Origin: an uncultured Lachnospiraceae bacterium
GTDB taxonomy: Bacteria > Bacillota > Clostridia > Lachnospirales > Lachnospiraceae
Direction of reading: 5' to 3'
Assembly: GCA_947385425.1 (NCBI GenBank)
Contig: CANDKY010000028.1
Span: 1-39,683 of the forward strand
Length of the DNA stretch: 39,683 nucleotides
The notes beneath the pieces were generated by a model. It did not search any database and had not been told where the DNA came from. It worked only from the letters and a program-made list of their open reading frames with translations. Made by a program: the position numbers and the translations under genes. This document shows positions 2,501 to 25,867 of the stretch, piece by piece. The first letter of the stretch is position 1, and the number at the start of each line of letters is the position of its first letter.

Positions 2501-2653
2501 TTATCGAATGCCATACTCCTGTTCCAGATTGTTCTTAAGCTTTTTCCCTGTAACACGAAAAATTGCAGCACTGATTCCTGCAGCCAGAATCGCTATAGCC
2601 ATCATCACGATACCACCATAAAACAAGCATTCGCTTACCGATAAACCGAACAT
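2501..2653 (-). CDS. Small single-pass membrane peptide (copy A)
   Basis: Fifty residues: a short N-terminus, a hydrophobic segment (about residues 12-32, GGIVMMAIAILAAGISAAIF), then a basic-to-charged tail (GKKLKNNLEQEYGIR). It lies between the membrane TPR gene and the truncated kinase, in the same orientation. The layout matches the 46-residue peptide at 5840-5980: one membrane helix, a basic stop-transfer patch and an amphipathic tail ending in E-Y. I do not recognise a named family. A role as a small partner subunit of the membrane kinases is inference from the repeated placement. Confidence 0.6.
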   Translation of the reverse strand: MFGLSVSECLFYGGIVMMAIAILAAGISAAIFRVTGKKLKNNLEQEYGIR

Positions 2654-2677
2654 ACACTATTCCTTCCCTTCGCCCAG

Positions 2678-3229
2678 TCAGCCGATCTTACAGAGCAATC
2701 CGGAAATATCCTTCCAGACATCAGAAATACCATCCACCACCGTAGATGCCTTCTCTACCCACCCAAGAAACATATCCAAACCCTGCACACAGAAATCCGT
2801 CAATCCTGCAACTCCTTCAAAATCACTGTTTGCCTTTGCCATGTTCCGGAATTGCCTGAGTCCCGCTTCCGCCTCAATGACTTTCTTCTGAATTTGGCCA
2901 AAAACACATTTTTCCTCTGCCTCTTCCATGACCTCTTCAGCCATATCCGGTTCCTCCAAAGCAGTATAGACTTCCGCCAGGCCAAGATACGCTTCATAAT
3001 CCGTTTCATCCATCTGTATAATATTTTCAAAAACTACTTCTGCCTGTTCATAATTCATATCTGAAAGGTATCGGTATCCCAGATCCAATTGCTCCGAATG
3101 CTTATCCCCCGACACCTTGCCATATGCATAGAGTTGGATAAAGAGAAACGCAACAACAAACACGGTTCCGCCTGCCAATAACCTTTTTATTTTTCTATTC
3201 ACCGCCGCCCCAGCCTTTCCGGATGGCAT
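2678..3229 (-). CDS. Membrane-anchored TPR protein (short paralogue)
   Basis: 183 residues. An N-terminal basic stretch and a membrane helix (about residues 19-36) are followed by two TPR-like repeats (about 45-108), including EQLDLGYRYL and YEAYLGLAEVYTAL. These align well by eye with the TPRs of the surface protein at 10761-12959 (AQLDLGKRYA, LEAYLGLADAYMAL). The C-terminal third is helical without clear repeats. The gene starts 6 bases after the phosphatase stop; an internal GTG at 3202 is an alternative start. TPRs suggest a scaffold for protein contacts at the membrane. Partners are unknown; the kinase and phosphatase neighbours are obvious candidates. Confidence 0.7.
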   Translation of the reverse strand: MPSGKAGAAVNRKIKRLLAGGTVFVVAFLFIQLYAYGKVSGDKHSEQLDLGYRYLSDMNYEQAEVVFENIIQMDETDYEAYLGLAEVYTALEEPDMAEEVMEEAEEKCVFGQIQKKVIEAEAGLRQFRNMAKANSDFEGVAGLTDFCVQGLDMFLGWVEKASTVVDGISDVWKDISGLLCKIG

Positions 3230-3235
3230 TCACAC

Positions 3236-4111
3236 TCACACATCCAACACCGGCATGTAATATGCCTTAACCAACACCGCCGTTATATTATCCCTTTCCC
3301 CCCGTGCTTTCACCATGGAAACAGCGTCCGCCAGCCGCCTTTTCATAGCTGCCCGATCCGAAAAAAACTCCGGCTTCATCCATTCCTTTATTTCACCATC
3401 CGAAAGTTCATGAATAAAGCCATCGGAACATAAGAGGAAAACCGCATCCCTCTCAATCCTCCCCGCCTGATATACCACACGCAGGGATTTTGCCCCTCCG
3501 ATACACTGCAGAATAATGTTCCTGCGTTTATCATGCTTTGCCGCTTCACTGGACAGCCTCCCTGCCCTCACTTCCTGCGCCACGAAACTTTGATCCTCCG
3601 TGATCTGCCGCAGTTCCCCATCCATGCAATATGCCCTGCTGTCACCCACCTGCGCTGTTATATATTCCCTGTCCCAAATCAAAAGCAGCGTCAATGTTGT
3701 CCCAACCTGTATCCCATTCTCCCTGGCATACTCATAAATCATCCGGTTCTGCGCCTGTACACAGCTTTCTATTCCGCTGTGAAGGCAATCCATAATCTGC
3801 CTGCCATCTTTACCCTGCATTTCCCTGCCAATCGTATAATCAAACCAATGGTTGAGCGACTGGATGGTACTTTTGCTCGCATAATCCCCTTCCTGCATTC
3901 CTCCCACCCCATCACACACTGCTGCCAACAGCAGGGAATGCCCCCCTGTCTTCATCATTCTAACACAACAGGCATCCTGATTGACTTTTCGGCATATCCC
4001 CATATCTGTCTGCATTTCCGAAATAAACCGTATCCCATCCTCCGGAATCTGCCTGGCAACTCCGCATCTATCCAATATCCGTATTGTTTTTTCCTCCATC
4101 GCCTGCCCCAA
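3236..4111 (-). CDS. PP2C-family Ser/Thr protein phosphatase
   Basis: A cytoplasmic, stand-alone PP2C (PPM) domain covers about residues 28-285. The metal-binding motifs are all present: NQDA (D46), VCDGVGG (D67, G68), GTTLTLLL, VGDSRAY (D157), CSDGF (D230) and RDN (D274). There is no transmembrane segment, so it should remove phosphate from Ser/Thr residues in the cytosol, with the neighbouring kinases and FHA proteins as likely partners. The annotated start is TTG; ATG at 4099 (residue 5) is equally possible. A 192-base gap separates it from the VWA-FHA gene upstream. The pairing with two kinases and FHA proteins is the core of a phospho-signalling module. Family assignment is secure. Confidence 0.93.
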   Translation of the reverse strand: MGQAMEEKTIRILDRCGVARQIPEDGIRFISEMQTDMGICRKVNQDACCVRMMKTGGHSLLLAAVCDGVGGMQEGDYASKSTIQSLNHWFDYTIGREMQGKDGRQIMDCLHSGIESCVQAQNRMIYEYARENGIQVGTTLTLLLIWDREYITAQVGDSRAYCMDGELRQITEDQSFVAQEVRAGRLSSEAAKHDKRRNIILQCIGGAKSLRVVYQAGRIERDAVFLLCSDGFIHELSDGEIKEWMKPEFFSDRAAMKRRLADAVSMVKARGERDNITAVLVKAYYMPVLDV

Positions 4112-4303: not shown

Positions 4304-5812
4304 TCAGATAGGCATAATTTCCACATAAAACTCCACTTCTCCCATCCTGACTGTATTTCCCGAGATAATTTCCGTTTCCTCCTGAATCATCCTTCCATCA
4401 ACAAAAGTATGGTTCGCCGAACGTAAATCACGTACATAAAAACGGTTATTTCTGCTGTAGAACTCACAATGCTGCCCGGAAACGGTAAGGTTATAATCCA
4501 CCGGAATCTGTACCATATCAATATTCCGCCCAACCGCCACATGGCGGTCCAACGGATACCGGAATACCCTCTCCGGATTTATCCTATCCCTCAAGACCAG
4601 CAGATACCGTCCCTCCGGAACTGCTGCCGCTTCCTCCTGTCTGATCTCTTTTGGTACTTCCGGCACTGCTTTTCTGCCTTTCTTTTTCACTGCCACTGCC
4701 GGCTTTTTCTCTTCTTTCCCTGTATTCCCTCTTCTTTTATTATAAATAAAGAGCAGAACTGCTGCCAAAAGCGCGAAAACAACCCCCGCCAGTTTTCCGG
4801 TTCCAATCCCTGAAACCTCCGGTTCCTGCGGCTCTGGTTCTATCTCCGGTTCAGGTTCCGGCACAGGCTCTGGTTCAGGTTCCGGCTCTTCCTCCGGTTC
4901 AGATTCCGGTTCCTCCTCCACCAATGTAAAAGGCATGGATGCTTCTCCTGTCACTTCCACATCCCCATCCTCTGTATGTATGTTCAACAGCACATGCCGG
5001 TTATCCCCATCCATAACTTTTTCCGGCACATCCATCCGGATACCACATATCCCGGAGAAATCATGGATTCCAGCCACAATCTCCCCAACCTCACCATAAT
5101 CCTCAATCAGAAATTCCTTCCCGCCTGTCATCCGCGACAAGGCAAACATATTTTTTAATTCCTCAGAGTTTTCCTTGTAGACATGCCCGATTGTATAGAC
5201 CGGACGGGATGTCTCATTCAGTTTGGCTGCCAGTTCCTCTTTTGTGATACCAATTGCTTTATTGTCCACACCATCTGAAATAATGATAAATCTGGTATAT
5301 GCTGTATCATTCTGGATATCCCCCAGCATTTGAAACACAAAATCTGTCAGATAAGTATCCTGATTTTGAAATTCCATCCCCTCTATCAGCGTCAAAAGCA
5401 CATCCTCCCCCTTTGCCCTTTCCGCCAGAAACTGAATTTCCTCCCCAAACAGTGCAAAGCTGACTTCCTCCTGCTCCGGTATTCCCTGCACATACTGCCG
5501 CAGGATTTCTTTAATATTCCCACGGTTTTCCTCTGTAACGGACAGAGAATTATCCACCATAATAATGGTATGGACGGAAATATTTTCCGGCTGTATTACC
5601 TCCACATTTTCACAGGGATATTGGGCAACCTGCCCTTCCGCATCATTTACCTTACTGCCGCACTCAATATAGGCCACTACCGCCTTCCCATCCGCCACAA
5701 TCTGCATAAGACGGCCGTCTGCTGCCGCATATGCCTGTCCCATGCCGCCAAAAGCTATCCATACCGCAAGCACTGCTATCCATATGTTCCACCTATGCCT
5801 TACCCACTCCAA
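4304..5812 (-). CDS. Transmembrane receptor-like protein: extracellular VWA, Glu/Pro stalk, cytoplasmic FHA
   Basis: 502 residues, starting at TTG with AGGAGGG just upstream. Order: signal peptide (1-30, ending AYAA); von Willebrand A domain (about 80-255) with MIDAS residues D87-x-S89-x-S91, a candidate T near 153-156 and D180 in ISDGVD; a Glu/Pro-rich stalk (about 299-332); a membrane helix (about 341-357); a basic linker; and a C-terminal FHA domain (about 402-500) with VGRN 427-430, SGQH 445-448 and N467. The VWA part should face outside and bind metal-dependent ligands, while FHA should read phospho-threonine inside. It sits between the PP2C gene and a small membrane peptide gene. A role in carrying surface contact to the kinase circuit is inferred. 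Confidence 0.88.
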   Translation of the reverse strand: MEWVRHRWNIWIAVLAVWIAFGGMGQAYAAADGRLMQIVADGKAVVAYIECGSKVNDAEGQVAQYPCENVEVIQPENISVHTIIMVDNSLSVTEENRGNIKEILRQYVQGIPEQEEVSFALFGEEIQFLAERAKGEDVLLTLIEGMEFQNQDTYLTDFVFQMLGDIQNDTAYTRFIIISDGVDNKAIGITKEELAAKLNETSRPVYTIGHVYKENSEELKNMFALSRMTGGKEFLIEDYGEVGEIVAGIHDFSGICGIRMDVPEKVMDGDNRHVLLNIHTEDGDVEVTGEASMPFTLVEEEPESEPEEEPEPEPEPVPEPEPEIEPEPQEPEVSGIGTGKLAGVVFALLAAVLLFIYNKRRGNTGKEEKKPAVAVKKKGRKAVPEVPKEIRQEEAAAVPEGRYLLVLRDRINPERVFRYPLDRHVAVGRNIDMVQIPVDYNLTVSGQHCEFYSRNNRFYVRDLRSANHTFVDGRMIQEETEIISGNTVRMGEVEFYVEIMPI

Positions 5813-5839: not shown

Positions 5840-5980
5840 TCAGCTTTGGTTTTTGTATTCCCCATTTATCTTCTCTATTAATTTCGCCCTCTGCTTCCCG
5901 AAGAGAGCCACCGCCAGCGCCAATCCGGCCGCCCCGGCTACGCACAGCACGATGCCTGCTGCCATTAAAATACTTCCCAT
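5840..5980 (-). CDS. Small single-pass membrane peptide (copy B)
   Basis: Forty-six residues: an Ala/Gly/Leu/Val-rich membrane helix (about 5-27), FGKQRAK as a basic stop-transfer patch, and a charged tail (LIEKINGEYKNQS). A strong GAGGAGG site lies 7 bases before the ATG. It precedes the VWA-FHA gene by 27 bases and follows the GLUG lipoprotein gene in the same direction. Its design repeats that of the 50-residue peptide at 2501-2653, although sequence identity is low. The family is unknown; possibly a small regulatory or assembly subunit. Confidence 0.65.
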   Translation of the reverse strand: MGSILMAAGIVLCVAGAAGLALAVALFGKQRAKLIEKINGEYKNQS

Positions 5981-6085: not shown

Positions 6086-8413
6086 TTAACCAGTATAAGC
6101 GTTACCTTCATAAATACATATACTCGTGATTTCTCCTCCCTCTGAACCATAACCAATACGATAGTTACCTGGCGCATCACCTGTAGCAAATGAATAATCA
6201 TTTACTCTCACAAAGCCATATTTTTTCAATGTCTCTTCCGCTTCTTTTTCCTTCATTCCCGGATATAATCCCAATAACGTCATATTGCCAGCTTGCTGAT
6301 TCTCATAATATAATATACCGCTATTGTCCATATAAAACGTAAATGCAGGTATATCATCATAGCTTCCTTCATAAACATATCCTTCTTCTACTTCCTTAAA
6401 ATCTATACCACAACCAGATGCCAGACCATCCATTAATTCCATTCCATATACACCTTCCATTTCCATAAATACTTCGCCTATATCTAAATCCATATCTCTT
6501 TTCAGCATATCATGGTAATAACGAAGGTATACTCCTGTATAGACACTATAATTACGTGCCATTAATGCTCTCCACTGTATATCCCCGGAAAAATCATTTT
6601 CCTTTTTCCAATCATCCATGTATTCAATCTCTGCTTCCTTTATCACCTCATTTTTATCTAAATCATAACTATAAACAAAAACCTCTATGAAATCCGGTCC
6701 CTTTATCAAAAGTTCCTCCTGCCCGTCCTTGTCTATATCCACAATCGCATATTCATAAAATGTTTCACCATCATACTCTTTCGTGTTCGGAGAATAATAT
6801 TCCTTTTCTGTATCTTCCGGCCAATATCCTCCGAGACTGAAGGCTGCAAGCATATCCGTATAGCGCTGCATTAGTACAATATCTTTTTCATCCATACTTG
6901 CCGCCATATTATCCAGAACATCATCGTAATACGCCATTACCCGCTCCGCTTCATCTACCCCATAAGGATGCGGAAACCCGCCATACAATTCATTGATCCC
7001 CCATGCAGAGGGATAACTAAAGTCCGGTAAATTCTCCCGAATGTCTTTCATTACTTCGACAGGTATTTGCCCTATACAATAATATCCCGTACAGTCATAA
7101 AAAGGTGTTGAATCATTAATCTGCGGCCTTGTATAATATTCCAGTTCCTCATTTCCTATATTCAGGCAGTTCCTGATTTTGCATGTGCCGTAATTTAATT
7201 CAATCCCCCCACAGACACCCCCGCCTGAATTATCACCTGATAAAATCACTTCTGCCGTATTCAGGCAGTCTTCTATTCTCATCGTCAATATCTTATTTTG
7301 ACCGCTGAATGTAATAAAATCCACTTCTCCACAGATGGCTCCTGCCAGCTTATTCCCTGTCACATTATTATAATTTGCACATTGCCGTATTATGTAATTC
7401 TTGCTGGATGCCTTAACTTCATCCCTGCTGCCAATCCTTCCTACAATCCCTCCCACAGAATAATCGGAAGAGTCGGATGTAGACACTTCCCCATAATTAA
7501 AACACCGATTTATTGTCAGAAGTACCTGATATTGTAAGTCTCCATAACGGTTATGCACAGAGCCAATCAGGCCTCCAACCCCGCCTTCCAAATAACCTTC
7601 TCCGGTAATATTTCCATAATTTTCACAATTATAAATATATACACTACCCAAAGCCGCCGATTGACTGCCCAAATATACATCCCCGGCAAGGCCTCCTGCA
7701 CCACCTTCATTTGACGCGGCATCAGATATAACATCCGCGTTATTATAGCAATATTGGATATTTATAAAAGTCTGCTCCGGTGGAACTATACTGCCGACAA
7801 GCCCTCCCCTCCCCTGGACACTGCCTGTAACATAACAATTACTTATTGTTCCGGAAATCATCTGATCTGCTAATGCAGCATCAGATACATTTACATTTTC
7901 CAGGCCCAGATTCTGTACCGTACCGGACAGCTTTCCCAAAAGGCATGATGACAGGTTCGAAATCACATGATAGTTTCCATCCAACATACCTTTAAAATCT
8001 GATTTCTTCCATATTGCACCTGAAAAATCCAAATCAGACATTAAAATATAATTTCCATCTATATCCTCTGTTACTTTTTGCAAATCATCCAAGGAATATA
8101 TCCCTACATAACCTTCCGGAACATCCACAAGAGCTTCCTCTGCCACTATAAAACCTTCTCTTTCCCCTTTACCCGTTACAAACAATTCTGTTTGTCCACT
8201 CTCATGTGTTTCAGCCATATTTTCATCAGACATTTGGCTTGAATCTACAGCGGATGGTTCCAACACATCTTCTCTGTTATTCTCTTCGTGATCCTCTTTC
8301 CCTGTTTCTACAGGCTTATCTGATTGATTTTTGGAGCTGCCACATCCACATAAAATAAGAGTAATGGCTTGAAAATATAACATTATTATAATAAACATAC
8401 GTTTCCTGCCCAT
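6086..8413 (-). CDS. GLUG-repeat surface lipoprotein
   Basis: 775 residues. A lipoprotein signal ends in L-C-G-C (lipidated Cys at about residue 24), followed by a charged low-complexity linker (25-95). The middle (about 125-440) holds repeated beta-helix style units with GLUG-like cores (GGLVGS, GGLAGD, GGLIGS, GGIVGR) alternating with N/Y-rich strands such as CYNNADV and FNYGEV. The last third (about 480-775) is a mixed acidic domain I cannot name. GLUG repeats occur in bacterial surface and adhesin-like proteins. It is exported, probably anchored on the outer face of the membrane, and encoded between the kinase and the VWA-FHA receptor, so it may be a ligand or surface partner. Substrate is unknown. 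Confidence 0.75.
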   Translation of the reverse strand: MGRKRMFIIIMLYFQAITLILCGCGSSKNQSDKPVETGKEDHEENNREDVLEPSAVDSSQMSDENMAETHESGQTELFVTGKGEREGFIVAEEALVDVPEGYVGIYSLDDLQKVTEDIDGNYILMSDLDFSGAIWKKSDFKGMLDGNYHVISNLSSCLLGKLSGTVQNLGLENVNVSDAALADQMISGTISNCYVTGSVQGRGGLVGSIVPPEQTFINIQYCYNNADVISDAASNEGGAGGLAGDVYLGSQSAALGSVYIYNCENYGNITGEGYLEGGVGGLIGSVHNRYGDLQYQVLLTINRCFNYGEVSTSDSSDYSVGGIVGRIGSRDEVKASSKNYIIRQCANYNNVTGNKLAGAICGEVDFITFSGQNKILTMRIEDCLNTAEVILSGDNSGGGVCGGIELNYGTCKIRNCLNIGNEELEYYTRPQINDSTPFYDCTGYYCIGQIPVEVMKDIRENLPDFSYPSAWGINELYGGFPHPYGVDEAERVMAYYDDVLDNMAASMDEKDIVLMQRYTDMLAAFSLGGYWPEDTEKEYYSPNTKEYDGETFYEYAIVDIDKDGQEELLIKGPDFIEVFVYSYDLDKNEVIKEAEIEYMDDWKKENDFSGDIQWRALMARNYSVYTGVYLRYYHDMLKRDMDLDIGEVFMEMEGVYGMELMDGLASGCGIDFKEVEEGYVYEGSYDDIPAFTFYMDNSGILYYENQQAGNMTLLGLYPGMKEKEAEETLKKYGFVRVNDYSFATGDAPGNYRIGYGSEGGEITSICIYEGNAYTG

Positions 8414-16989: not shown

Positions 16990-17723
16990 AGCGATGTCTT
17001 CGCACACACCTTGTACCGTCTCGGTTCCAACTCAAAGATCCCCAGATGGAAATCTATCGTATACACAATCGAAACCTCCAGTTCCGGCATCCCGCCGCTG
17101 GACGAATTTGCCCACTTACTATCGCCGAACTCTAAACCACCCATGCCGCCGTCAATCCCCAAATCTTCCAAATATTCATCCGCACTCTTGGACGACATAT
17201 TTTCTATCTGTTCCTCCACAATCCCTTCCACAATGGCCGCAATTGCCATATCGCTCAGCATATCCGCACCCATTGTCTTAATCAGGCTGAAAATATTATC
17301 CATCAAAGCGTCCGGATCGCCAAAAAATTCACCGGCATGCTGCCCCGCCTGCTGTACCGAACCAATCACATTTCCGCCGCCCCTGATTGTTTCCCCAACC
17401 GCTTTTACATCGTCCAGCAGACTGCCTGCATCTGCCGCAAACTCCGCTGCCTGTGTTGAAGTACTGACACGCTTCTCCACAATCCCTGTCTTCGTCAGTA
17501 CATAGCTGTATTGTGAAATTTCCCTGGCCGCCTCTGTTGCCGCATACTGTAGGATAACCTGAGCCCTGGCAATCTGGATTAAATCCATCATCGCTAAATA
17601 AAATACAATAAAAATCACCAGGAAAATGGAAGCTTCCAGGGTAATGCTCCCTTTTTCTTTGCCCTTTCCTATCCCACCGGCCTTTCCCGGCCGCGTCAAA
17701 CGCCTAATACCCCTGTATCCCAT
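16983..17723 (-). CDS. TadE-like pseudopilin
   Basis: 246 residues. A basic N-terminus ends in KGSITLEASIFLVIFIVFYL, a type IV pilin-like N-terminal helix with the glutamate expected in the pseudopilin leader region. One membrane helix (about 25-47) precedes a mostly helical extracytoplasmic domain and a short beta C-terminus. TadE/TadF proteins are minor pilins processed by the prepilin peptidase. Its gene overlaps the DUF5702 gene upstream by 20 bases and the peptidase gene downstream, indicating tight coupling. The member type (TadE or TadF) cannot be settled by eye. Confidence 0.78.
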   Translation of the reverse strand: MGYRGIRRLTRPGKAGGIGKGKEKGSITLEASIFLVIFIVFYLAMMDLIQIARAQVILQYAATEAAREISQYSYVLTKTGIVEKRVSTSTQAAEFAADAGSLLDDVKAVGETIRGGGNVIGSVQQAGQHAGEFFGDPDALMDNIFSLIKTMGADMLSDMAIAAIVEGIVEEQIENMSSKSADEYLEDLGIDGGMGGLEFGDSKWANSSSGGMPELEVSIVYTIDFHLGIFELEPRRYKVCAKTSLW

Positions 17724-20334
17724 GATAATCTACCTTAAATGCTTCCCTGTCATAAGCAACATCATATCCCGCGCCACCCAGCCTCTGCAAAAAGAACGTG
17801 TCTATATAAAGTGTGGCATCCACGGAAACCATCGTGTACATATCCTTTAACGTATTCTCCGGTTTCGCCTTTTTTTCCGTCAAATTCAGTTCAATGCAGT
17901 CCGCCGCCCGCCCTAACAGTTTCGTCTGCTGGGACGGGATATACATATTCACACACACCAATATCCACAAATAGTCCTCATAAATAAACCCTGACCCGTC
18001 GTCATCGTAAGGCACCGGTCTGGATAACAGCCAATTCTTCCATTTACTTTGCCTTTTAATCAGCGGCACCGCTTTCCCTTCTACCACCAGGTCTGTCACA
18101 TTATCCACGGTCTCCACCGTAGCGACGATTGCCAGCAAAGCACCCCTAATTGCCGTCCTCCCTACCATCCCCACAGGGAAAAGGGCCGCAATCGTCCCTG
18201 CCTGCCTACCCAGCTCGCTGTCCGTAAAGGCAAAGGACATATTGAAGACAAAATTAGCGGCAAACAAAATCGCCTTTGTCTTATTGATATTGCTTTTCAC
18301 ATTCGGACTGCCCCACAGGATATACTCCACTTCCGCCCGGTACAACGCATTTTTTTTCAATGCCGCCCTGCTTAAAGACTGCGGTTCTTCAATCGCACTT
18401 CCGTCCCGCTCACGGTTTACCGTATAGTAGGAAAACATGCCCATCACATATTCCGTGCAGTACAATGGCTCGAGCGCGCTCTCCGCAAACTTCCCCATCA
18501 TAGAACCGAGGGAAGCCATCTGTGACAGCGATGCATTTTCCCGGTTCAGATTTTTGCTGCCGCTCTCCGACGCTTTTTTCCTGGACTCTTTATCATCCAG
18601 GCTTCCTTCCGCCTGAATGGCATCACCTGCATAATCCCCTTCTGCCGCAATCCCCAGCCACACGGAGGGAAGAGCGTTTCCACCGATATCCCTGACATTG
18701 AGGTCTTCGATATCCGATGTGGCCAACAGTGTATTCCATTGCTCCATCTTCGTTGTCAGCTTATTTTTCCATGTCGAGGCCTGTGAATTAGCCGCAGACT
18801 CGTTGGCGCTGTCCGTATTACAATAGGTATCTTTCAATTTTTTTATAAACGGATCCCTCTCATCCACGGTCAAATCAATGTCCCCGGATAAAACAGCCAT
18901 ATCTGCCGTATGGTAATGCCCAAAAAAATTACCGGCTGCGGCGCTTACCTCCCCGCCTTCCATAATCTGCCCGTAATCCGCTCCCCCCATGAAAACCGAT
19001 TTCGAAGAAATATCATAATCCACACGGTATTCCATAAAAGTAACCTGGTCCAACAGCCCCAGCACATCGTCAAAATAAACCCTGTTCTGTATGGTCTTCG
19101 CCTCATAGTCAGCAATTATACCGTTATTCTCAAATAAACCGCTTATTTCATCAATGCTTTTCCGGTAAGCGCTTTTGGAAGCGTCATTGGAAAGGTTATT
19201 CACCGCTGCCTTCCAATCCTCATACTTTCCTCTGCTGCCTTCCAACGCATCCCTTATCTCATTCAGCTTATCCGCCACTTCCGTGCAGCACTCGCTGCCT
19301 TCCCTGGCATATTCCCGCTGCACATGCATGGAAGAATAGGACTCTTCCACAAGCCGGTCCAATTCCCGCCCTATGATTTCTATCCCTTCCTCCATATTGG
19401 CCTCTGCGTTCCCGTAATCCGAAATCAGGCGCTCGTTTTCCTCATACTCATCACTCTCAGGATCCAGGTTATCCAGCAATTCCTGCGTATTCTTCCCGTT
19501 CATAAAATTAGTGATGCGCTTCATTTTTATCAGATTCGACACCGTATCCGGGGTAATGCTGCTTACATCGCAGCTTAAATCAACCATTTCCTCCATCAGG
19601 TCCTTCATTTCCCCCGATGCGCTATCCGTACAATGTGTCAGTCTATAATAAGACACTGCCAACAGTGTGATTTTTTCATAATTCTGTTCTGTGCTTGTCA
19701 CTAATCCGTTCAGATAGGCTTTCGTGCCGATGGCATTGACATAAGTTACCTGCCTGTCCGCCAGCCCGTTCAATTCATCCAATAACTTTTGGACATCGTT
19801 CAAATCCTTCTCAAATTTCAACTGGGCATCTGCGGCTGCCTTCTCTTCCTCCAAAGTCTCCAGTTCACCCACCCTATCCTCCATGGCCCGCCCGACCAGG
19901 GTAACCGGTGCGCGGTACTTCATATATTCCAGCACTTCCTGCTTAAAGACTTCCGTCTGATAAATTTCTGTATCCACAAGGTCCGAAGCGTGGAACCCGC
20001 CCTCCGTCAGTTCCAGGTACACCAGCGCCTTGCTGAAATCTTCCCCGGAAACACCGCAGGCGTTCAGCGACATCTCAAAACAGTCCTTCATAATGCTTTC
20101 CACTTCCTCTGCCGTATCCGCCATTGCCAACAGGCCATACGCTGCATTTAACTGCTCATGGTAATTGGATAAAGCAGCATTCATCGCCAGATCCCCTGCT
20201 TCGGAAACGAGATTCTTACTCGCCAGTATCCGGCTCCCGTCAACCATAACTCCGCTGAATATAAACATCGGGATTAAAATCAAAGTCAGAAAGACCGCAA
20301 TCGCCCCATCATGTTTTCTGCAAAAATTTGTCAT
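17704..20334 (-). CDS. DUF5702 protein of the Tad locus (TadG-like)
   Basis: About 876 residues from ATG 20334. An earlier ATG at 20412 lies inside a stable hairpin and lacks a clear binding site. The N-terminus (FCRKHDGAIAVFLTL, then a hydrophobic helix to about residue 32, then VMVDGSRILASKNLV) is the signature of TadG-like/DUF5702 proteins: one membrane helix, then a large outer domain. The rest is helical, with a coiled-coil-like region (about 165-410) and a hydrophobic stretch near 735-765. It is probably a minor pilus component or a tip or anchoring protein. Placement between two TadE-like genes fits. Detailed function is unknown. Confidence 0.82.
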   Translation of the reverse strand: MTNFCRKHDGAIAVFLTLILIPMFIFSGVMVDGSRILASKNLVSEAGDLAMNAALSNYHEQLNAAYGLLAMADTAEEVESIMKDCFEMSLNACGVSGEDFSKALVYLELTEGGFHASDLVDTEIYQTEVFKQEVLEYMKYRAPVTLVGRAMEDRVGELETLEEEKAAADAQLKFEKDLNDVQKLLDELNGLADRQVTYVNAIGTKAYLNGLVTSTEQNYEKITLLAVSYYRLTHCTDSASGEMKDLMEEMVDLSCDVSSITPDTVSNLIKMKRITNFMNGKNTQELLDNLDPESDEYEENERLISDYGNAEANMEEGIEIIGRELDRLVEESYSSMHVQREYAREGSECCTEVADKLNEIRDALEGSRGKYEDWKAAVNNLSNDASKSAYRKSIDEISGLFENNGIIADYEAKTIQNRVYFDDVLGLLDQVTFMEYRVDYDISSKSVFMGGADYGQIMEGGEVSAAAGNFFGHYHTADMAVLSGDIDLTVDERDPFIKKLKDTYCNTDSANESAANSQASTWKNKLTTKMEQWNTLLATSDIEDLNVRDIGGNALPSVWLGIAAEGDYAGDAIQAEGSLDDKESRKKASESGSKNLNRENASLSQMASLGSMMGKFAESALEPLYCTEYVMGMFSYYTVNRERDGSAIEEPQSLSRAALKKNALYRAEVEYILWGSPNVKSNINKTKAILFAANFVFNMSFAFTDSELGRQAGTIAALFPVGMVGRTAIRGALLAIVATVETVDNVTDLVVEGKAVPLIKRQSKWKNWLLSRPVPYDDDGSGFIYEDYLWILVCVNMYIPSQQTKLLGRAADCIELNLTEKKAKPENTLKDMYTMVSVDATLYIDTFFLQRLGGAGYDVAYDREAFKVDYHGIQGY

Positions 20335-20407
20335 TTCCCCACCCCAGCCGGCTCCTTCGGAACCGGAATTATACTTTCTGCTTCCTTCCATAAAATGTTG
20401 GTAAACA

Positions 20408-20438
20408 GCCATGCCCGGAAATATGCTCCGGGTATGGC
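20408..20438 (-). promoter_or_regulatory. Intercistronic hairpin between TadE-like and DUF5702 genes
   Basis: A 12-bp stem with one G-U pair (20408-20419 with 20427-20438, core CCCGGA/TCCGGG) begins immediately after the TadE-like stop codon. On the transcript there is no U-run, so it is not a standard terminator. It could stabilise the upstream pilin mRNA or mask the in-frame ATG at 20412, which lies inside the stem. Confidence 0.55.
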
Positions 20439-21098
20439 CTAAAATACATATGTCCGGATTCCGTCCATGATTTTTTCCAAATCGCCCTGGATACCCAGTT
20501 TTTCACTTACAATCGTAAGAGCATCCCCTGCCAGGTCCACCATACGCACAAACGTTGCCGGATCCAGCGCCACAGCGGACGCCGACTGCTTGTACGCCAG
20601 GGAATCCGGATAGCCAAAATAACGCATAACCCCCGGCGTAGGGAACCGGAACGTCACCTCGGCCATAATCCGCGTGGAAAACAATCCCCTCTCGACAGAT
20701 ACCGTATTGTCCGCATAAGCCCCTCCGGCCAGCAGCAGCGTGCTTTCCGCCACTGTATCCATAAAACCCTGCAGCTCATCCCCACTGGTCCATGCCCCAT
20801 ACCCGGCCAATTCCCGGTACAGCACGAACAAATCCCTGTGGGCCGCTTCATAATACCGGTTCACATCCGCAGGATCCGAAGAAAAATCAATTGCCTTTTC
20901 CCTGTACTCCCCCAGTTCCTGATAGCCCGGGTTCGCCAGGACATGCGCCCCCTGGTGCGCCACACGCTGCACCTGATAGAGCATCGCCATCTCCTGAAGT
21001 TTAAATAAACCTAAATAAAGCAAGGCAAATACGGTCATCAGCACGATAGGAAAAACGATGGCCGCCTCTACCATAACTGCGCCTGTTTCTTTTTTCAT
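20439..21098 (-). CDS. TadE-like pseudopilin
   Basis: About 219 residues from ATG 21098 (AGGA nine bases upstream); an in-frame ATG at 21116 is an alternative. The N-terminus KKETGAVMVEAAIVFPIVLM is a textbook TadE leader and membrane helix, with the conserved glutamate inside GAVMVEAAI. A globular outer domain follows. It is a substrate for the prepilin peptidase and a minor pilin in Tad systems. The gene follows the Flp-like pilin gene by about 30 bases. It differs from the second TadE-like gene at 16983-17723 in the outer domain. Confidence 0.85.
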   Translation of the reverse strand: MKKETGAVMVEAAIVFPIVLMTVFALLYLGLFKLQEMAMLYQVQRVAHQGAHVLANPGYQELGEYREKAIDFSSDPADVNRYYEAAHRDLFVLYRELAGYGAWTSGDELQGFMDTVAESTLLLAGGAYADNTVSVERGLFSTRIMAEVTFRFPTPGVMRYFGYPDSLAYKQSASAVALDPATFVRMVDLAGDALTIVSEKLGIQGDLEKIMDGIRTYVF

Positions 21099-21129
21099 AG
21101 TTTGGAGTCCTGTCATTCGCAATTAACCA

Positions 21130-21339
21130 TTACCCTATAAAATCTGTAAATTGCTCAAACACTGCCTCAACTGCTGCCGTTAACTGCTCCCTGAAAATAG
21201 CGGCAATTGCTATCACGATGACCATAAGCAAAATGATTTCCACAAATCCAACACCTCCTTCCTCATTAAGCAGTTCCTCCAGCTTTCCCCGCAAAACCTG
21301 TCCCATCTGCAGTTTCTTAATCCGTAAAAATGTCTTCAT
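21130..21339 (-). CDS. flp: Flp-like type IVb major pilin
   Basis: 69 residues: a basic leader (KTFLRIKKLQMGQVLRGK), an acidic patch, then EEGGVGFVEIILLMVIVIAIAAIF, a pilin-type helix with glycine before the hydrophobic run and a nearby glutamate. A short amphipathic C-terminus follows. Size and layout match Flp1-like pilins of Clostridia. Cleavage probably falls at the glycine before FVE; the exact residue is not certain. As the likely major pilin it would be needed in the largest amount, and it is separated from tadC by 365 bases, unlike its neighbours. That fits a promoter or processing site of its own, but I cannot identify one. Confidence 0.8.
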   Translation of the reverse strand: MKTFLRIKKLQMGQVLRGKLEELLNEEGGVGFVEIILLMVIVIAIAAIFREQLTAAVEAVFEQFTDFIG

Positions 21340-21704: not shown

Positions 21705-22571
21705 TTACAACCCCGAAATAATCGGAGCCATAACCATAAATAAAATACCGATGAAGATAATAACCGTCGGAAGCAGAAGCTCGGAATTCGCCTTCTCCCC
21801 CTTCTGCTTCACCAGGTTACGTTTTTCCATCCACAGTTCATCTGCCATATCCTTCAAAAACATGGTCAGTTCCGCCGCACCTTTTTCCAACCCCTGCACC
21901 ACCATGGAGGAAAACTTCCGTATCTCCTTGATCCCGCACCGTTCGGCAAACTCCCGGTACGCCGCCGCTTCCGGCACACCATTGTCAAGCTGGATGGCCG
22001 TAAGCTGCATTTCCTGAAACAATACCGTGTCAGACTGCCCCGCAATCATGTTCCACGCATCACGCAGCAGCATCCCCGAATTTACAAGCAGTGTCATCTT
22101 CGACAATACCTGTGGGAACTCCGCCAGGATTTCCTCCCTCCTTGCCGTCAGCTTGTCCTTAAAGCTTTCATTCATATACCACACAAAAATCGCTGCAAGG
22201 ACTGCCCCAAAAAACAACGCAACTGGATTGTTTTCCAGAAGCGCCAGCAGAAAAATAATCGGAAGTACCGTAATCACATAAGTGATCTTCCCGCCTACCG
22301 ACACATAGTAATAATATTCGGCATACTTTTTCCCATACACTTCGGACATCAGTTTAATCTTCTTCCGGGACGCATCCGACTTGATATTGAAATGAATAAT
22401 CTCCATAATCTGAAAACCTATGTAAAACAATTCGCTCAGATAATAATCATCTGCATTAATTGAAGATGTCACTTCCTCAAACTTTTCCTCATATTTAAGC
22501 GCCACTGCCACCCAGAACAATACCGCCACCGTAGTCGGCAACAACATGGCAAGCTGAAATGTACTCTGCAT
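21705..22571 (-). CDS. tadC: Tad inner-membrane platform protein TadC
   Basis: 288 residues with the type II secretion system F (T2SSF) domain (about 150-275), including ILAEFPQVLSKMTLLVNSG, LLRDAW and the closing GEKANSELLLPTVIIFIGIL. Hydrophobic helices occur at about 6-24, 96-128 and 265-286. It forms the membrane platform with TadB on which the TadA ATPase acts. The start ATG follows GGCGGGGGAG. The gene begins 15 bases after tadB. Family and position agree fully. Confidence 0.9.
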   Translation of the reverse strand: MQSTFQLAMLLPTTVAVLFWVAVALKYEEKFEEVTSSINADDYYLSELFYIGFQIMEIIHFNIKSDASRKKIKLMSEVYGKKYAEYYYYVSVGGKITYVITVLPIIFLLALLENNPVALFFGAVLAAIFVWYMNESFKDKLTARREEILAEFPQVLSKMTLLVNSGMLLRDAWNMIAGQSDTVLFQEMQLTAIQLDNGVPEAAAYREFAERCGIKEIRKFSSMVVQGLEKGAAELTMFLKDMADELWMEKRNLVKQKGEKANSELLLPTVIIFIGILFMVMAPIISGL

Positions 22572-22586
22572 GCTCCCCCGCCTTCC

Positions 22587-23384
22587 TTATATCTTAATAT
22601 CCGTAAATTTCCGTCCCAGATGATAAGCCAGATAAAACATTCCCAGTGCAATCACCTTAATCCCTACATTGACAGGCGTATTGGATGCCGCCGTCATATC
22701 GCTGCCCATCCCCCCCAGGCTGACCAGAATCACTAACGGCATGACCATCATTATATTCAGTTCATTTTTATTCCCCGCTATGATCGTCTGGATCTCCATC
22801 TCTATCTCAATTTTGTCATTGATCACATCCCTCGTGGCCGCAATGATTTTCTGTATATTTGCCCCCTGCAGCGATACCCGGAAAACATCCGCAAAGCTGG
22901 CGATATCCTCCAAGCCGCTGCGGTTGGCAAAATTGGAAAGCAAATCTTCAATAGCTATATTATTCTCCATCCCGGTTACAAGAATTGCCAATTCCGTTGT
23001 AATATCCGCCTGATCCCCGTAAATCTGTTCCAAGTCATTCCACGCATCCCGAAAAGAATCCAGCGTGTTCTTCCCTGTTGCATAGGAAGTAGTCAGGGAT
23101 TCCAGTAAATCCTTAAACTGCAGAAGCAACTCCTTTTTCCGTTTTTTCTGCCTGCTCTCCCTGTAAATCCCCTGCGCCAGCACCGCCACAGCAGCGGCAG
23201 CCGCCACCGTCACAACAATACTATGAAAAAACAGATATGATACCACCCCGCCTATCCCTGCGCCAATCAGCCCCGCAATCATCCGGTCACTAGCTGACAT
23301 ATAGTAAATATGATAATCATCACCACCGCCAATCAAAGACTCTATTGGCTCATATACGTCTTTCTCTTTTTTAAAAAGCTCCAT
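22587..23384 (-). CDS. tadB: Tad inner-membrane platform protein TadB
   Basis: About 265 residues from ATG 23384 (AGAGGTG upstream); a longer in-frame start at 23426 lacks a good site. An N-terminal cytoplasmic stretch precedes two membrane helices (about 35-80). The T2SSF domain (about 90-235) contains LLLQFKDLLESLTTSYATGK, GLEDIASFADVFR and EMEIQTIIAGNKNELNIM. Helices near the C-terminus close the fold. It acts as the second platform protein with TadC. It follows tadA with a 48-base gap. Confidence 0.9.
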   Translation of the reverse strand: MELFKKEKDVYEPIESLIGGGDDYHIYYMSASDRMIAGLIGAGIGGVVSYLFFHSIVVTVAAAAAVAVLAQGIYRESRQKKRKKELLLQFKDLLESLTTSYATGKNTLDSFRDAWNDLEQIYGDQADITTELAILVTGMENNIAIEDLLSNFANRSGLEDIASFADVFRVSLQGANIQKIIAATRDVINDKIEIEMEIQTIIAGNKNELNIMMVMPLVILVSLGGMGSDMTAASNTPVNVGIKVIALGMFYLAYHLGRKFTDIKI

Positions 23385-23432
23385 GCCCCACCTCTTCTGC
23401 AAACTTTTTGCAAGCATACTTATCAATCACAC

Positions 23433-24671
23433 TTATATCTTCCCCTTATACCCCATCAACTTCAGCTTAAAATCATTCACCAGCAGATTTTCTGTCCTTT
23501 CCAGCACCCCGTCCACCCGTTCCACTGTGGATGTTTCACTCTCCCGAAATACATAAAGCGGATTAAGCTGTATCGCCCCATTTTCATATCCCACTACTTC
23601 CGTGATCTCCATTGTCTTCCTGGAACGGTCCCGCAGCCTGGACAGATGGACAATAATATCCACCGCCGACGCAATCTGCTGCCTGACCGCATCCAAGGGA
23701 AGCCCATCCGCCCCGGTCAGAACCATAGTCTCCAAACGGCTTAACATATCCCTGGCGGAATTGGCATGCCCGGTGGATAAGGATCCGTCATGCCCCGTAT
23801 TCATCGCCTGCAGCATATCCAGTGCCTCCGCCCCGCGGACCTCTCCCACCACGATACGATCCGGACGCATACGTAGTGCCGACTTAATCAAATCCCGGAT
23901 ACTGACAACGCCTACTCCTGCCGTATTGGCATTCCTCGTCTCCAAACTCACCAAGTTATCTACATTCACAATCTGCAGTTCCGCCGAGTCCTCAATCGTA
24001 ATCACGCGCTCATCAGAAGGGATGAAATTGGAAATCGCATTCAGGAAAGTCGTTTTCCCGGAGCCTGTACCCCCGCATATAAAAATATTATATTTTGCCT
24101 TCACCAACAGTTTCAGCACATCCGCAATCTGCGGTGTAATTGAACCATATTGGATCAGTTTTTCCACCGTCATCGGATCTTTGGAGAACTTCCTAATTGT
24201 GACAATAGGCCCTTTCAGTGAAATAGGCGGTAAAACCACATTCACGCGGGAACCATCCGGCAGTCTGGTATCCACAATCGGATTCGCCTGGGTTACCTCC
24301 CGGCCCGCCAGCGCCACTATCCGCTGGATCACATCCTGCAGCTTTTCCTCACTTTCAAAATGCTCTTCCAGCCTGCTCAGCCTGCCGGACTTCTCAATAA
24401 AAATCTCTTTAGGGCCGTTTATCATAACCTCCGTAACCGTATCATCATTAATGATCGTATCCAAAAGCCCAAAACCACGGATGGAGCTAAAGATCTGGTC
24501 AGCCAGGAACGCTTTATCCTCTATAGGCACGTACTTCCCGTTAAAATATCGGTTCACCTCATCCCTGACCTGCTTTTCCAGCGCTTCATCCGGCACCTTT
24601 TTCAAGTTAATATCTGCCAGTATCCTCTTTCTGATATTTTCCTGTACTTCCGTATTTCTCTCCTGCGCCAT
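23433..24671 (-). CDS. tadA: Tad pilus assembly ATPase TadA/CpaF
   Basis: 412 residues from ATG 24671, preceded by GGGGAGGTG; the frame extends upstream into repeat DNA and that part was not used. It is a hexameric secretion ATPase of the type II/IV superfamily. The N-terminal domain (about 1-170) precedes the ATPase domain with Walker A GGTGSGKT (about 200-207), RIVVGEVRG around the Walker B (about 272-280) and the His-box GHDGSLSTGHAN (about 293-304). It powers pilin assembly on TadB/TadC. The 125-base gap to tadZ contains a partial copy of the repeat found upstream of tadZ. Confidence 0.95.
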   Translation of the reverse strand: MAQERNTEVQENIRKRILADINLKKVPDEALEKQVRDEVNRYFNGKYVPIEDKAFLADQIFSSIRGFGLLDTIINDDTVTEVMINGPKEIFIEKSGRLSRLEEHFESEEKLQDVIQRIVALAGREVTQANPIVDTRLPDGSRVNVVLPPISLKGPIVTIRKFSKDPMTVEKLIQYGSITPQIADVLKLLVKAKYNIFICGGTGSGKTTFLNAISNFIPSDERVITIEDSAELQIVNVDNLVSLETRNANTAGVGVVSIRDLIKSALRMRPDRIVVGEVRGAEALDMLQAMNTGHDGSLSTGHANSARDMLSRLETMVLTGADGLPLDAVRQQIASAVDIIVHLSRLRDRSRKTMEITEVVGYENGAIQLNPLYVFRESETSTVERVDGVLERTENLLVNDFKLKLMGYKGKI

Positions 24672-24727
24672 CCGGCACCTCCCCACAACTGTTGTATTTT
24701 TTTCTGGCATCCGCACTCCCGGCATAC

Positions 24728-24747
24728 GCTCCATCCGGCCGAAAATC
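24728..24747. repeat. Partial copy of the tadZ-upstream repeat
   Basis: Twelve bases, CGCTCCATCCGG, followed by a further near-matching 8 bases (18 of 20 identical overall) repeat the outer part of the inverted-repeat arms at 25888-25921 and 26015-26048. It lies in the tadZ-tadA gap. There is only one arm here and similarity fades inward, so it is a solo or decayed copy. Confidence 0.5.
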
Positions 24748-24796
24748 TGGCGTATAGTAGGACTTATCCAGCATAAGTTATTTGCATACAGTTCCC

Positions 24797-25867
24797 TTAC
24801 CGAATCGCCTGCAGTAACTCCATATCTGCCAGCTTATCTACGATACCCGCAAAATTCCCGTTTTCAATTAACGGAAAAGCGCCCGCTACACGGATTTGTG
24901 AAATCACCTCCGGAAGAGGGGCATTTTTCAGCGTCCGGTTAATATAAATCTGCAGTTTTGAAACAATATCCAGCTTCTTCGTCTCCTCCACCGCCTGCAC
25001 GTAGTCCAGATAGCGCAACAGCTTCACCCTGTCCACCTCACCGGTTCCCGTCACCATAGCGATACGGTTAACCATAGACATCACCGTAATTTCCTTTTCC
25101 TGTAACCCATTTCCTAAATCAACGATTACTCTGTCATAATTCTTTGACGCTTCTATAGCTTTCAGAAGCTCCTTCATATCCTCCGCCGATAATGTCTGCA
25201 AGTCCATAGGATTGGCACATTCCTTAAAATAGTAGGTTCCCGCCCCATCTCTGGATACAGAACTCTCAATCTTCAAATCCAGGGTATTGCGCCTGCTCTT
25301 AACCGCATAAATCAGTTCATCCATCCCCGGCTTCTCATCCCCTGAAAATACAAGCCCGCACGTCCCTAAATCCTCCAGATTCAAATACAGCACCTTTTCC
25401 ATCCGGGAACACGCCTTTGCCGCTGCACAGGCCACAGTCGAAGCGCCGCTCCCGCCGCCTGCCGATACAAAGGCAATAAATGTAGTCTTCCCGCTTACAA
25501 TGGCCAGATTCTCATAATGGACATGCTCCTTTTTTGCATATAAATCCAACAAATCCCTGTAAATCTGATCTGCCCTCTGGTATTTCCCAATCTGCCGTTC
25601 CCCTTCCTCCTGCCATCCCGCATCCTCCGCCAGATAAGCCCACAGACACCCTTCTGTGTATTTGTGTTCCAATTCCTGCATCACTGCCTGCATTTCTCTG
25701 CCTACCAAAATAAGATCAGCCATATCCGACTGAAAAATCTGCTCCAGATAGACAGACTGTGTATAAACATTCCACTGGAATTTATCATAATAGTGGGAAT
25801 TGAAGTAATTTACCAGCTTTTCGCAATACAAGGTATCTTCCGAACATATAAACACTTTAATTTTCAT
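24797..25867 (-). CDS. tadZ: TadZ/CpaE-like ParA-family protein
   Basis: 356 residues from ATG 25867 (GGGGAAAG upstream). The frame stays open further back through the repeat element and that part is not believed coding. A receiver-like N-terminal domain (about 1-120) comes before a MinD/ParA-type domain with a deviant P-loop, SAGGGSGAST at about 135-144, which lacks the usual lysines. A Walker B-like VIVDLGNG follows. TadZ proteins place the Tad machine in the cell; the lysine-poor P-loop suggests nucleotide binding with weak or no hydrolysis (inference). First structural gene of the Tad block. Confidence 0.85.
   Translation of the reverse strand: MKIKVFICSEDTLYCEKLVNYFNSHYYDKFQWNVYTQSVYLEQIFQSDMADLILVGREMQAVMQELEHKYTEGCLWAYLAEDAGWQEEGERQIGKYQRADQIYRDLLDLYAKKEHVHYENLAIVSGKTTFIAFVSAGGGSGASTVACAAAKACSRMEKVLYLNLEDLGTCGLVFSGDEKPGMDELIYAVKSRRNTLDLKIESSVSRDGAGTYYFKECANPMDLQTLSAEDMKELLKAIEASKNYDRVIVDLGNGLQEKEITVMSMVNRIAMVTGTGEVDRVKLLRYLDYVQAVEETKKLDIVSKLQIYINRTLKNAPLPEVISQIRVAGAFPLIENGNFAGIVDKLADMELLQAIR

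Follow-up and report, generated by a model that had tools for sequence, protein, structure and literature searches.

The threonine phosphorylation pathway of type VI secretion systems (T6SS) comprises a kinase, a phosphatase and an FHA protein, and in phospho-threonine (pThr) switches of the GarA/OdhI type a phosphorylatable threonine motif lies beside a pThr-binding FHA domain. Our analysis concerns a Tad pilus locus in a 39,683-nt stretch of DNA (hereafter, the window) from an uncultured Lachnospiraceae bacterium (assembly GCA_947385425.1, contig CANDKY010000028.1, positions 1 to 39,683), in which the tad genes are accompanied by genes for a Hanks-type kinase, a PP2C phosphatase and a protein combining the domain DUF6382 with an FHA domain (DUF6382-FHA). 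On balance, we lean towards regarding this locus as belonging to a separate kind of Tad system, widespread in Clostridia, that carries its own pThr control module, which would license Tad assembly.

A similar gene set has been described for variants of the type VII secretion system (T7SS), and the authors of that work also suggest phospho-control of T7SSe and T7SSf and summarise the T6SS kinase/FHA pathway in their discussion (PMC11217815). Theirs was the one paper in the open-access literature searched in which we found DUF6382, named there as a domain of unknown function and, in the accessible text, not called a pseudokinase. FHA enrichment, in turn, is already on record for the Kil Tad system of Myxococcus xanthus, for which a signalling cascade was proposed (PMC8460266) in a main text with zero occurrences of both 'kinase' and 'phosphatase'. 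The initial annotation's claim of an undescribed system is narrowed by both precedents, and what survives of it is the pairing of Tad with a kinase: our search of the open-access literature turned up no report of Tad genes linked to a kinase and PP2C, and the accessible part of a Bifidobacterium paper (PMC13011404) showed no connection to such a module.

Positions below are window coordinates; the whole locus occupies the minus strand and reads from 25867 to ~1984. Gene identities derive from a Pfam scan of 20 window proteins, together with gene order, inspection by eye and matches to relatives, of which genome G253 is the nearest that carries a locus of the window kind; C5, C34 and C90 denote contigs of the window's own genome. 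The features central to the argument are:

23433..24734, minus strand: motor ATPase tadA/cpaF, which marks the window kind of Tad (Pfam T2SSE, 1.2e-61; tadA tree)
14941..16260, minus strand: membrane-anchored WG-repeat protein (Pfam WG_beta_rep, 8e-43; one hydrophobic segment)
13025..14944, minus strand: DUF6382-FHA, with a pseudokinase-fold domain, a long linker and an FHA domain (Pfam DUF6382, 8.5e-21; FHA, 2.2e-14)
14399..14845, minus strand: DUF6382 domain, predicted pseudokinase (hhalign to EssB/YukC; Foldseek top Rv3910/MviN)
13769..13786, minus strand: candidate phospho-acceptor motif ENTVMM in the linker (motif count)
13349..13366, minus strand: candidate phospho-acceptor motif ECTMML before the FHA domain (by eye; outside the counted pattern)
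13064..13261, minus strand: FHA domain, with the Arg of its GR replaced by Ser and the site Ser, His and Asn kept (Pfam; site alignment)
8435..10600, minus strand: Hanks kinase with one transmembrane segment and a TPR ectodomain (Pfam Pkinase, 4.8e-39, and TPR)
9908..9964, minus strand: Thr-bearing insert after the kinase APE motif, TETLCL ... ATAFL (by eye; no strict-motif match)
3236..4111, minus strand: PP2C phosphatase of a Tad-linked PP2C group (Pfam PP2C_2, 1.5e-11; tree)

Lachnospiraceae carry two kinds of Tad locus: a common, ordinary kind, exemplified by a second Tad cluster on C5 of the window's own genome, and the window kind. At least 243 of 250 sampled genomes of the family hold some tadA (E up to 1e-60). 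Genomes with a tadA nearer that of the window are a minority, of which 22 were retrieved, and within the genus the window kind occurs in 3 of 16 genomes, G253 and G262 being the only others with window-kind tadA there. In a tadA tree of 88 rows, the two kinds lie on opposite sides of a deep split (support 93 in the Shimodaira–Hasegawa-like approximate likelihood ratio test, quick method); the window side also holds ten Paenibacillus or Cohnella rows and a few others. Kinase linkage changes only twice on this tree among the 46 scored rows (27 with a kinase), the remaining 42 of the 88 rows being unscored, including named loci whose flank has a kinase, and the G194 extension rows left out.

Kinase, PP2C and DUF6382-FHA belong with window-kind Tad across genera and families. 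Selection of the 22 family loci and of the named loci relied on tadA alone, with their neighbours unseen; G253 and G262 were first met through kinase homology. Across the 27 loci available in full context (the window, G253, G262, 17 family loci and the named loci L084, L085, L089, L092, L094, L095 and L097), a Hanks kinase was linked in 26 and kinase plus PP2C in 23, or in 23 and 20 of 24 once the window, G253 and G262 are set aside. A WG gene was present in 25 of the 27 (not in G117 and G194). By comparison, 19 full-context ordinary Tad loci had no kinase, PP2C or WG gene; DUF6382 was found in all 19, with an FHA domain in 17. The difference in kinase linkage (26/27 vs. 0/19) corresponds to a Fisher p of ~5e-12, a value that ignores shared descent. 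These controls, several from the window's genus, had numbered 20 before one that ends early (C227 of G253) was dropped. They were mostly viewed only 2–4 kb upstream of tadA–tadZ, and for window-kind loci scored as negative a whole-genome search was added; within the same narrow frame, untruncated family loci of the window kind showed a kinase in 15 of 17 cases and PP2C in 14. In G009, G265, G267, G271, G029 and G067, at least one of the two genes is found upstream of tadZ/tadA. Blautia sp. An81 is an example with both kinase and PP2C linked.

Contig ends removed G012, G051, G016, G111, G237, L086, L090, L096, L098 and L101 from the full-context set; L093 (tadA without other tad genes) and G157 also stand outside it, and L087, L088 and L091 duplicate the G262, G028 and G067 loci. 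Named loci from other phyla and Bacillus (within L119–L163), whose tadA is nearer the window's yet only 45–54% identical, were excluded from the window kind, and none has a kinase in view.

The single full-context locus of the window kind without a kinase, G007 (L189/L190), has no linked PP2C either, its one PP2C and one kinase sitting together on another contig, and its DUF6382 protein has also lost the FHA domain. G007 is a natural coupled loss of kinase, PP2C and FHA. Both this loss and the linkage in 26 of 27 loci speak against an alternative that we consider rather unlikely, namely that pseudokinase and FHA domain form a purely structural, phosphorylation-independent hub at the Tad base while the kinase and PP2C work chiefly elsewhere, e.g. 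on envelope proteins.

Predictions for a held-out set of loci from other families were written beforehand. Of 20 new loci, 18 were retrieved, G287 and G404 being cut off at tadA, and 16 of these had context, G547 and G481 being too short to score; among the 16, nine had a kinase, 11 PP2C and eight both. When split by nearest tadA, a division made at annotation reading, after the predictions, the 11 loci nearer the window kind comprised ten with DUF6382, nine with a kinase, nine with PP2C, eight with both and seven with WG; for the five nearer the ordinary kind, the corresponding counts were three for DUF6382, two for PP2C and none for kinase or WG. At the class edge, where tadA identity falls to ~60%, the trait thins.

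The DUF6382 domain is predicted to be a pseudokinase. With an N-terminal DUF6382 and a C-terminal FHA domain, the window protein falls into the DUF6382-FHA (TseJ/TsfJ) family. A profile alignment (hhalign) of 81 DUF6382 rows to ten rows of the pseudokinase EssB/YukC gave a Prob of 92.2 and a score of 48.7 over 184 columns, compared to at most 20.2 for eight unrelated Tad-locus families and FHA, 12.6 for reversed EssB and at most 18.6 for 30 column-shuffled EssB profiles. With window-kind rows alone, Prob was only 41. Aligned to the locus kinases, DUF6382 scored 30.3, and EssB did not align with them (hhalign Prob 1.2). An AlphaFold2 model built from the window DUF6382 domain and 30 sequences reached a mean predicted local distance difference test score of 90.4 and a predicted TM-score of 0.85. 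Searched against the Protein Data Bank (PDB) with Foldseek, it returned protein kinases throughout the best 50 of 1994 rows, headed by the Rv3910/MviN pseudokinase (E 4.2e-6, TM-score 0.59, root-mean-square deviation (rmsd) 7.8), one of these structures being its complex with the FhaA FHA domain (3oun). EssB was not among these best 50 of 1994 rows, Pfam YukC was not among the 25 families listed by HMMER for 30 DUF6382 members, and the DUF6382 alignment, used to search PDB sequences, returned nothing beyond a chance-level match. The window protein has no predicted transmembrane segment and thus appears to lack the membrane anchor and extracellular helical domain of EssB/YukC. By analogy, the two possible models point in different directions: MviN–FhaA, the best structural match, would suggest reading of a phosphorylated pseudokinase, and EssB–EssC, the closest by sequence, phosphorylation-independent contact.

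Between the two domains lies a linker in which candidate phospho-acceptor threonines are enriched directly before the FHA domain. We counted the motif T[TVE][VILMFY][LMI] (T-x-x-L/M type), framed after reading 22 of the window-kind loci, and scored it against shuffled sequences. The 28 window-kind linkers held 29 matches, compared to 1.05 expected (standard deviation (sd) 1.04), distributed over 19 linkers, ten of which carry two motifs 10–16 residues apart just before the FHA domain; seven linkers unread when the motif was framed contributed eight matches in four. The 13 held-out linkers likewise had 13 matches vs. 0.82 expected (sd 0.92; maximum of 5000 shuffles, 7), located in eight linkers and all within 45 residues before the FHA domain. 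Enrichment extended to 17 ordinary-Tad linkers (18 vs. 2.05, mostly single motifs) and to 21 linkers of the named rows L100–L132, including Paenibacillus (10 vs. 2.02), against a background of 167 matches (137 expected) across the 465 remaining proteins of the loci. Elsewhere, the motif occurred in 11 kinase inserts following APE (6 vs. 0.60), in four T7SS kinase inserts (2 vs. 0.11, too few to carry weight), in WG proteins (8 vs. 3.1) and in three VWA-FHA rows (5 vs. 0.5), while the kinase inserts of G094, G184 and G135 show TxxD-like series instead, as judged by eye. The 50 matches in 25 TadA proteins (10 expected) we read as a conserved ATPase stretch rather than a switch.

In the FHA domains of 29 proteins (one being the T7SS-side copy of G265), the residues of the pThr site are largely kept: His in 29 and Asn in 28 cases, Arg or Lys at the GR place in 25, and Ser in 17 (Gly in 12). 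Conservation of this site in most copies, and a threonine motif that is enriched immediately before the FHA domain in held-out loci as well, count against a hub that serves as scaffold only. That account draws, for its part, on the same pairing of pseudokinase and FHA in T7SSb, reported as phosphorylation-independent (PMC9600267, PMC11217815), on the ordinary Tad hub having no linked kinase, and on the window FHA domain missing the site Arg.

Taken as a pThr control module, the locus could operate as follows. The membrane receptor kinase, through its TPR ectodomain in the window, would sense something extracellular, conjectured in the initial annotation to be surface contact, and phosphorylate T-x-x-L/M motifs in the DUF6382-FHA linker and perhaps its own post-APE insert. 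An FHA domain, of the same or a neighbouring copy, would then bind the phosphorylated motif, which may alter the shape or oligomeric state of a DUF6382 pseudokinase-FHA hub at the cytoplasmic face of the Tad base. The altered hub would license the motor to build or retract pili, with PP2C resetting the switch. For the initial annotation's proposal that pThr gates the pilus, gene linkage and the candidate pThr motifs beside the FHA domain argue in favour; its inclusion of the VWA-FHA and GLUG-like genes is not supported.

Several observations weigh against this mechanism. In the window itself, the two linker motifs are 140 residues apart rather than 10–16, the kinase has no strict-motif match, the second kinase of the module is broken, and the FHA domain, like that of G253, has Ser in place of the pThr-binding GR Arg, which to judge from the sequence counts against a strong switch in this copy. 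More broadly, nine of the 28 window-kind linkers are without the motif, four of the 27 loci are without linked PP2C (G067, G269 (Blautia caecimuris) and G270 have a kinase and no PP2C on that contig), and held-out G383 shows neither kinase nor PP2C. The Foldseek matches to Rv3910 come with large rmsd values (7.4–8.6; TM-score 0.59–0.61 for the best), and EssB–EssC FHA binding in T7SSb is reported to be phosphorylation-independent (PMC9600267). Ordinary Tad loci keep DUF6382-FHA and the motif without a linked kinase; the hub can therefore work with a housekeeping kinase or without phosphorylation. Finally, among 32 named loci with a tadA nearer that of C5 (flanks up to 10 kb, often shorter), five have a kinase within the 10-kb flanks (L104, L114, L115, L125, L134); PP2C was found in none of the 32 and DUF6382 in 25. 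In two of these, Paenibacillus L115 and L125, the Tad loci include DUF6382-FHA and a kinase gene starts ~3–4 kb upstream of tadA. The Paenibacillus kinases may represent a separate gain of kinase control.

The window kinase retains its catalytic motifs (Gly loop, VVIK, HGD, DFN and APE), and the motifs of PP2C are likewise intact. Kinases of Tad loci fall into several groups, here classified from a tree of those whose domain could be extracted (34 rows, without the G194 extension rows). TPR-type kinases occur in the window, G253, G269 and G270, along with T7SS-linked G003 and G013; propeller-type kinases of 950–1040 amino acids (aa) in G262, G114, G028, G067, G184, G117, G135, G271 and G272, together with those of T7SS-linked G111 and G076 (evidence for the propeller is a weak PQQ_2 match, observed in G262); and RD-type kinases of 555–660 aa in G099, G008, G073, G130, G088, G009, G266 and one of G265. 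Those of G029, G030 and another of G265 belong to none of these three types. Since different groups (TPR, propeller, RD) serve window-kind loci, a kinase is apparently retained through changes of type.

Several accessory genes travel with particular kinases. Relatives of the TPR and CarboxypepD_reg protein adjoin TPR-type kinases in G253, G269 and G094 and in the T7SS loci G003 and G013. Relatives of a 50-aa single-transmembrane ORF (TM50) directly precede the kinase in seven loci, five of them Tad (the window, G271, G267, G517, G421) and two, G111 and G076, where the TM50–kinase pair accompanies VWA-FHA and PP2C; in G067 the TM50 relative stands apart from the kinase. Several loci have large proteins with signal-like N-termini after the kinase, and two examples that were scanned carry choline-binding or Ig-like domains. 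Such secreted proteins, whether Ig-like, LysM or choline-binding, would fit a scenario in which kinase, PP2C and FHA steer expression or cell-wall remodelling for pilus passage and affect pili only indirectly, leaving the Tad motor untouched, as would the tie of MviN–FhaA, the best structural analogue, to cell wall synthesis (PMC11898655). We consider this scenario improbable; DUF6382-FHA is kept in ordinary Tad clusters, which ties the reader protein to the Tad machine itself.

Other parts of the locus are shared with T7SS. The C90 contig of the window's own genome carries a T7SS locus with DUF6382-FHA (DUF6382 just under the cut-off), a TadZ-like ATPase, YukD, an FtsK-type ATPase, WXG100, VWA-FHA and PP2C; the T7SS nature of the C90 and G111 loci is indicated by Pfam (WXG100, 1.2e-11; FtsK_SpoIIIE, 1e-55 and 2.4e-52; YukD, 5e-4, under the cut-off). 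The window in turn holds much of the T7SS accessory set, i.e. DUF6382-FHA, kinase, PP2C, VWA and small transmembrane proteins. Apart from the window, VWA-FHA homologues with E <1e-20 occupy 13 loci (12 in other genomes plus C90), none with a tad cluster in view and ten with a TsxC-type ATPase, which was not in the stretch seen at G076, G134 and G166. Among Tad loci, only the window and G253 have a full-length VWA-FHA. The kinase and PP2C trees each show six changes between Tad and T7SS (33 and 40 rows, respectively). VWA-FHA and the cassette of the broken kinase resemble T7SS accessory genes, which shows that the two machines exchange parts, and VWA-FHA, TM50 and the second kinase probably originate from T7SS.

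These resemblances invite the idea that the entire signalling half is a T7SS remnant whose core was lost beside a transposase, its adjacency to tad being accidental. Close T7SS relatives of VWA-FHA, TM50 and the broken kinase, the reported adjacency of T7SSg and T7SSh to Tad genes (PMC11217815) and the G265 locus, where Tad genes are directly followed by a T7SS core, would all agree with it. We nevertheless judge it highly improbable: the TsxC ATPase profile matched only one of 50 distinct window-kind or held-out loci (G265) and nothing in the window, BLAST found no WXG100 or YukD relatives in the window, G253 keeps the order of Tad, kinase, VWA-FHA, PP2C and TPR2 with no T7SS core in the contig, and the window PP2C groups with 13 other Tad-linked PP2Cs (support 94), a group of 14 without T7SS members. 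For kinase, PP2C and DUF6382-FHA, a remnant origin is thus largely refuted; we retain it for VWA-FHA, TM50 and the second kinase. In G265 (Ruminococcus sp. RGIG2051, L232–L234), the Tad genes, kinase and PP2C precede a T7SS core that has its own DUF6382-FHA.

Together, the comparisons revise the gene list of the initial annotation. That signalling genes keep company with tad genes in relatives was confirmed for kinase, PP2C and DUF6382-FHA. VWA-FHA, by contrast, resides mainly in T7SS loci (a tad cluster in view in 0 of 13 homologue loci), and DUF6382-FHA is not special to this locus, as it also ends kinase-free ordinary Tad clusters, including that on C5. Of the proposed surface proteins, WG is typical of the window kind, as counted above; the GLUG-like gene is absent even from G253.

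A broader, tentative reading, on which we remain close to undecided while leaning slightly against it, is that DUF6382-FHA with its Thr switch, receptor kinase and PP2C constitute a portable pThr unit serving both Tad pili and T7SS in Clostridia. In that event, TseD, TseF, TseJ and the small transmembrane protein would act as controllers independent of the machine, and a receptor kinase would fire the pili of one Tad kind.

The remaining features of the locus are:

24797..25867, minus strand: tadZ, with receiver-like domain and ATPase (Pfam TadZ-like_ARD, 7e-14; 72% identity in G253)
22587..23426, minus strand: tadB (no Pfam match; order and 83% identity to the G253 gene)
21705..22571, minus strand: tadC (Pfam T2SSF, 7e-8)
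21130..21339, minus strand: Flp prepilin, 69 aa (GFVEIILL prepilin motif by eye; 77% in G253)
20439..21122, minus strand: TadE-like minor pilin (no Pfam match; position and 86% in G253)
17704..20412, minus strand: TadG-like large protein (Pfam DUF5702, 5e-25)
16983..17723, minus strand: TadE family protein (Pfam TadE, 4e-5)
16285..17007, minus strand: prepilin peptidase, TadV/CpaA (Pfam Peptidase_A24, 4e-11)
10761..12974, minus strand: membrane-anchored TPR and CarboxypepD_reg protein (Pfam)
6086..8413, minus strand: GLUG-like secreted protein, accessory (sole Pfam match a weak Peptidase_M26_N)
5840..5980, minus strand: 46-aa single-transmembrane ORF (ORF inspection)
4304..5812, minus strand: VWA-FHA with one transmembrane segment (Pfam FHA, 8.5e-14; VWA, 9.4e-5, just below cut-off)
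2678..3229, minus strand: membrane-anchored TPR protein (Pfam; transmembrane prediction)
2501..2653, minus strand: 50-aa single-transmembrane ORF, TM50 (relatives precede kinases of 945–1040 aa in Tad and T7SS loci)
1984..2486, minus strand: second kinase, N-terminal part, broken after its DYN motif (Pfam Pkinase, 1.4e-31)
1550..2011, minus strand: DDE transposase fragment at the kinase break (Pfam DDE_Tnp_1, 4e-6)

TadA-type ATPase, TadB/TadC, Flp, prepilin peptidase, TadZ and TadE-type minor pilins are thus present together; no secretin RcpA or other outer-membrane part was detected by Pfam among the 20 window proteins, nor would one be expected in a monoderm. The tadB assignment draws on that of G253, which matches tadB of C5 at 32%. 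As initially annotated, the Tad set runs in one direction into the signalling genes, a layout supported by Pfam, gene order and the matches to G253, and the spacing is tight, with 15 of 19 intergenic gaps at or below 62 bp (range –25 to 62) and the others measuring 365 (tadC–flp), 160, 105 and 192 bp. Terminator-like sites were near chance (12 vs. 13.3 in shuffles for 9000–27000; 10 vs. 7.2 for 1–11000). Pfam likewise upheld two kinases (one broken), a PP2C and two FHA proteins, with VWA just under the cut-off. Of the earlier gene calls, the tadZ start at 25867 is correct, as the longer ORF (to 26014) enters a dispersed repeat; the 46-aa ORF had been missed, and the broken kinase extends below 2501. 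'GLUG' is a name from that first reading only. Homology of the broken kinase stops at ~1984, right after DYN, at the DDE transposase fragment; over 168 aa it is 78% identical to a kinase on C34. The latter (L081, 12100–19511) is an orphan propeller-type kinase of 1170 aa beside a 1324-aa LysM protein. In G099 (L169/L170), repeated short TadG-like pieces and ~250-aa genes lie between tadC and tadE, perhaps an exchangeable set of tip proteins.

Directly upstream of the tad operon, a resolvase-family recombinase is encoded at 26418–27020; relatives also adjoin tad loci in held-out G551 and G436 and lie downstream in G030. A 46-nt inverted repeat near this gene and upstream of tadZ (25888–26048) was considered as an invertible promoter, a reading dropped because the repeat has 53 matches in its own genome, several near full length, and is a dispersed palindromic element. 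A second inverted repeat with 31-nt arms (26128–26260) lies just upstream of the first. Farther away, two small overlapping ORFs occupy 150–711, the second matching ParE_toxin (Pfam, 2.8e-6) and the first, without a Pfam match, being the would-be antitoxin, and 37471–38754 holds a complete-looking IS110-family transposase ORF (Pfam DEDD_Tnp_IS110, 2.9e-24).

If a dedicated pThr module does license Tad assembly, common gut bacteria (Blautia, Catenibacillus and relatives) would have a dedicated receptor-kinase input to their Tad pili, seen in no published Tad system found in the literature searched. DUF6382, so far without an assigned function, would become a predicted pseudokinase hub, and several genes filed as T7SS parts would, as a warning to annotators, be shared controllers. 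The testable question raised is whether phosphorylation of linker threonines in DUF6382-FHA decides pilus building.

Compared to described systems, the window resembles T7SSe and T7SSf in its DUF6382-FHA (TseJ/TsfJ), membrane kinase (TseD) and PPM phosphatase (TseF), and T7SS variants more generally in its small single-transmembrane proteins and a vWA protein (TscE of T7SSc; PMC11217815). In contrast to T7SSe and T7SSf, its machine is Tad, with no TsxC ATPase and no WXG100 or YukD relative. Ordinary clostridial Tad, represented by C5, shares TadZ-A-B-C, Flp, the TadG-like protein, prepilin peptidase and DUF6382-FHA, and differs in showing neither a linked kinase nor a linked PP2C or WG gene in the stretch viewed, and in a tadA on the other side of the tree. 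Kil likewise combines a Tad-like machine with several FHA proteins, yet belongs to another phylum and has FHA fused to its ATPase, KilF (PMC8460266). A fused FHA also marks class III CpaF, where it sits at the N-terminus of the Tad motor, mostly in betaproteobacteria (PMC12019362), whereas the window FHA domain is on a separate pseudokinase protein. TraF of plasmid pIP501 provides another EssB/YukC-like pseudokinase in an envelope machine (type IV secretion); unlike DUF6382-FHA, it is a membrane protein, for which its authors report no FHA partner (PMC13037476). In MviN–FhaA (PDB 3oun), an FHA domain recognises the pseudokinase once a Hanks kinase has phosphorylated it (PMC11898655), whereas the window unites pseudokinase and FHA in one chain within a pilus locus. 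With the T6SS pathway, the window shares a kinase and an FHA protein in the service of an otherwise unrelated machine: there they control secretion, and here they may control a pilus.

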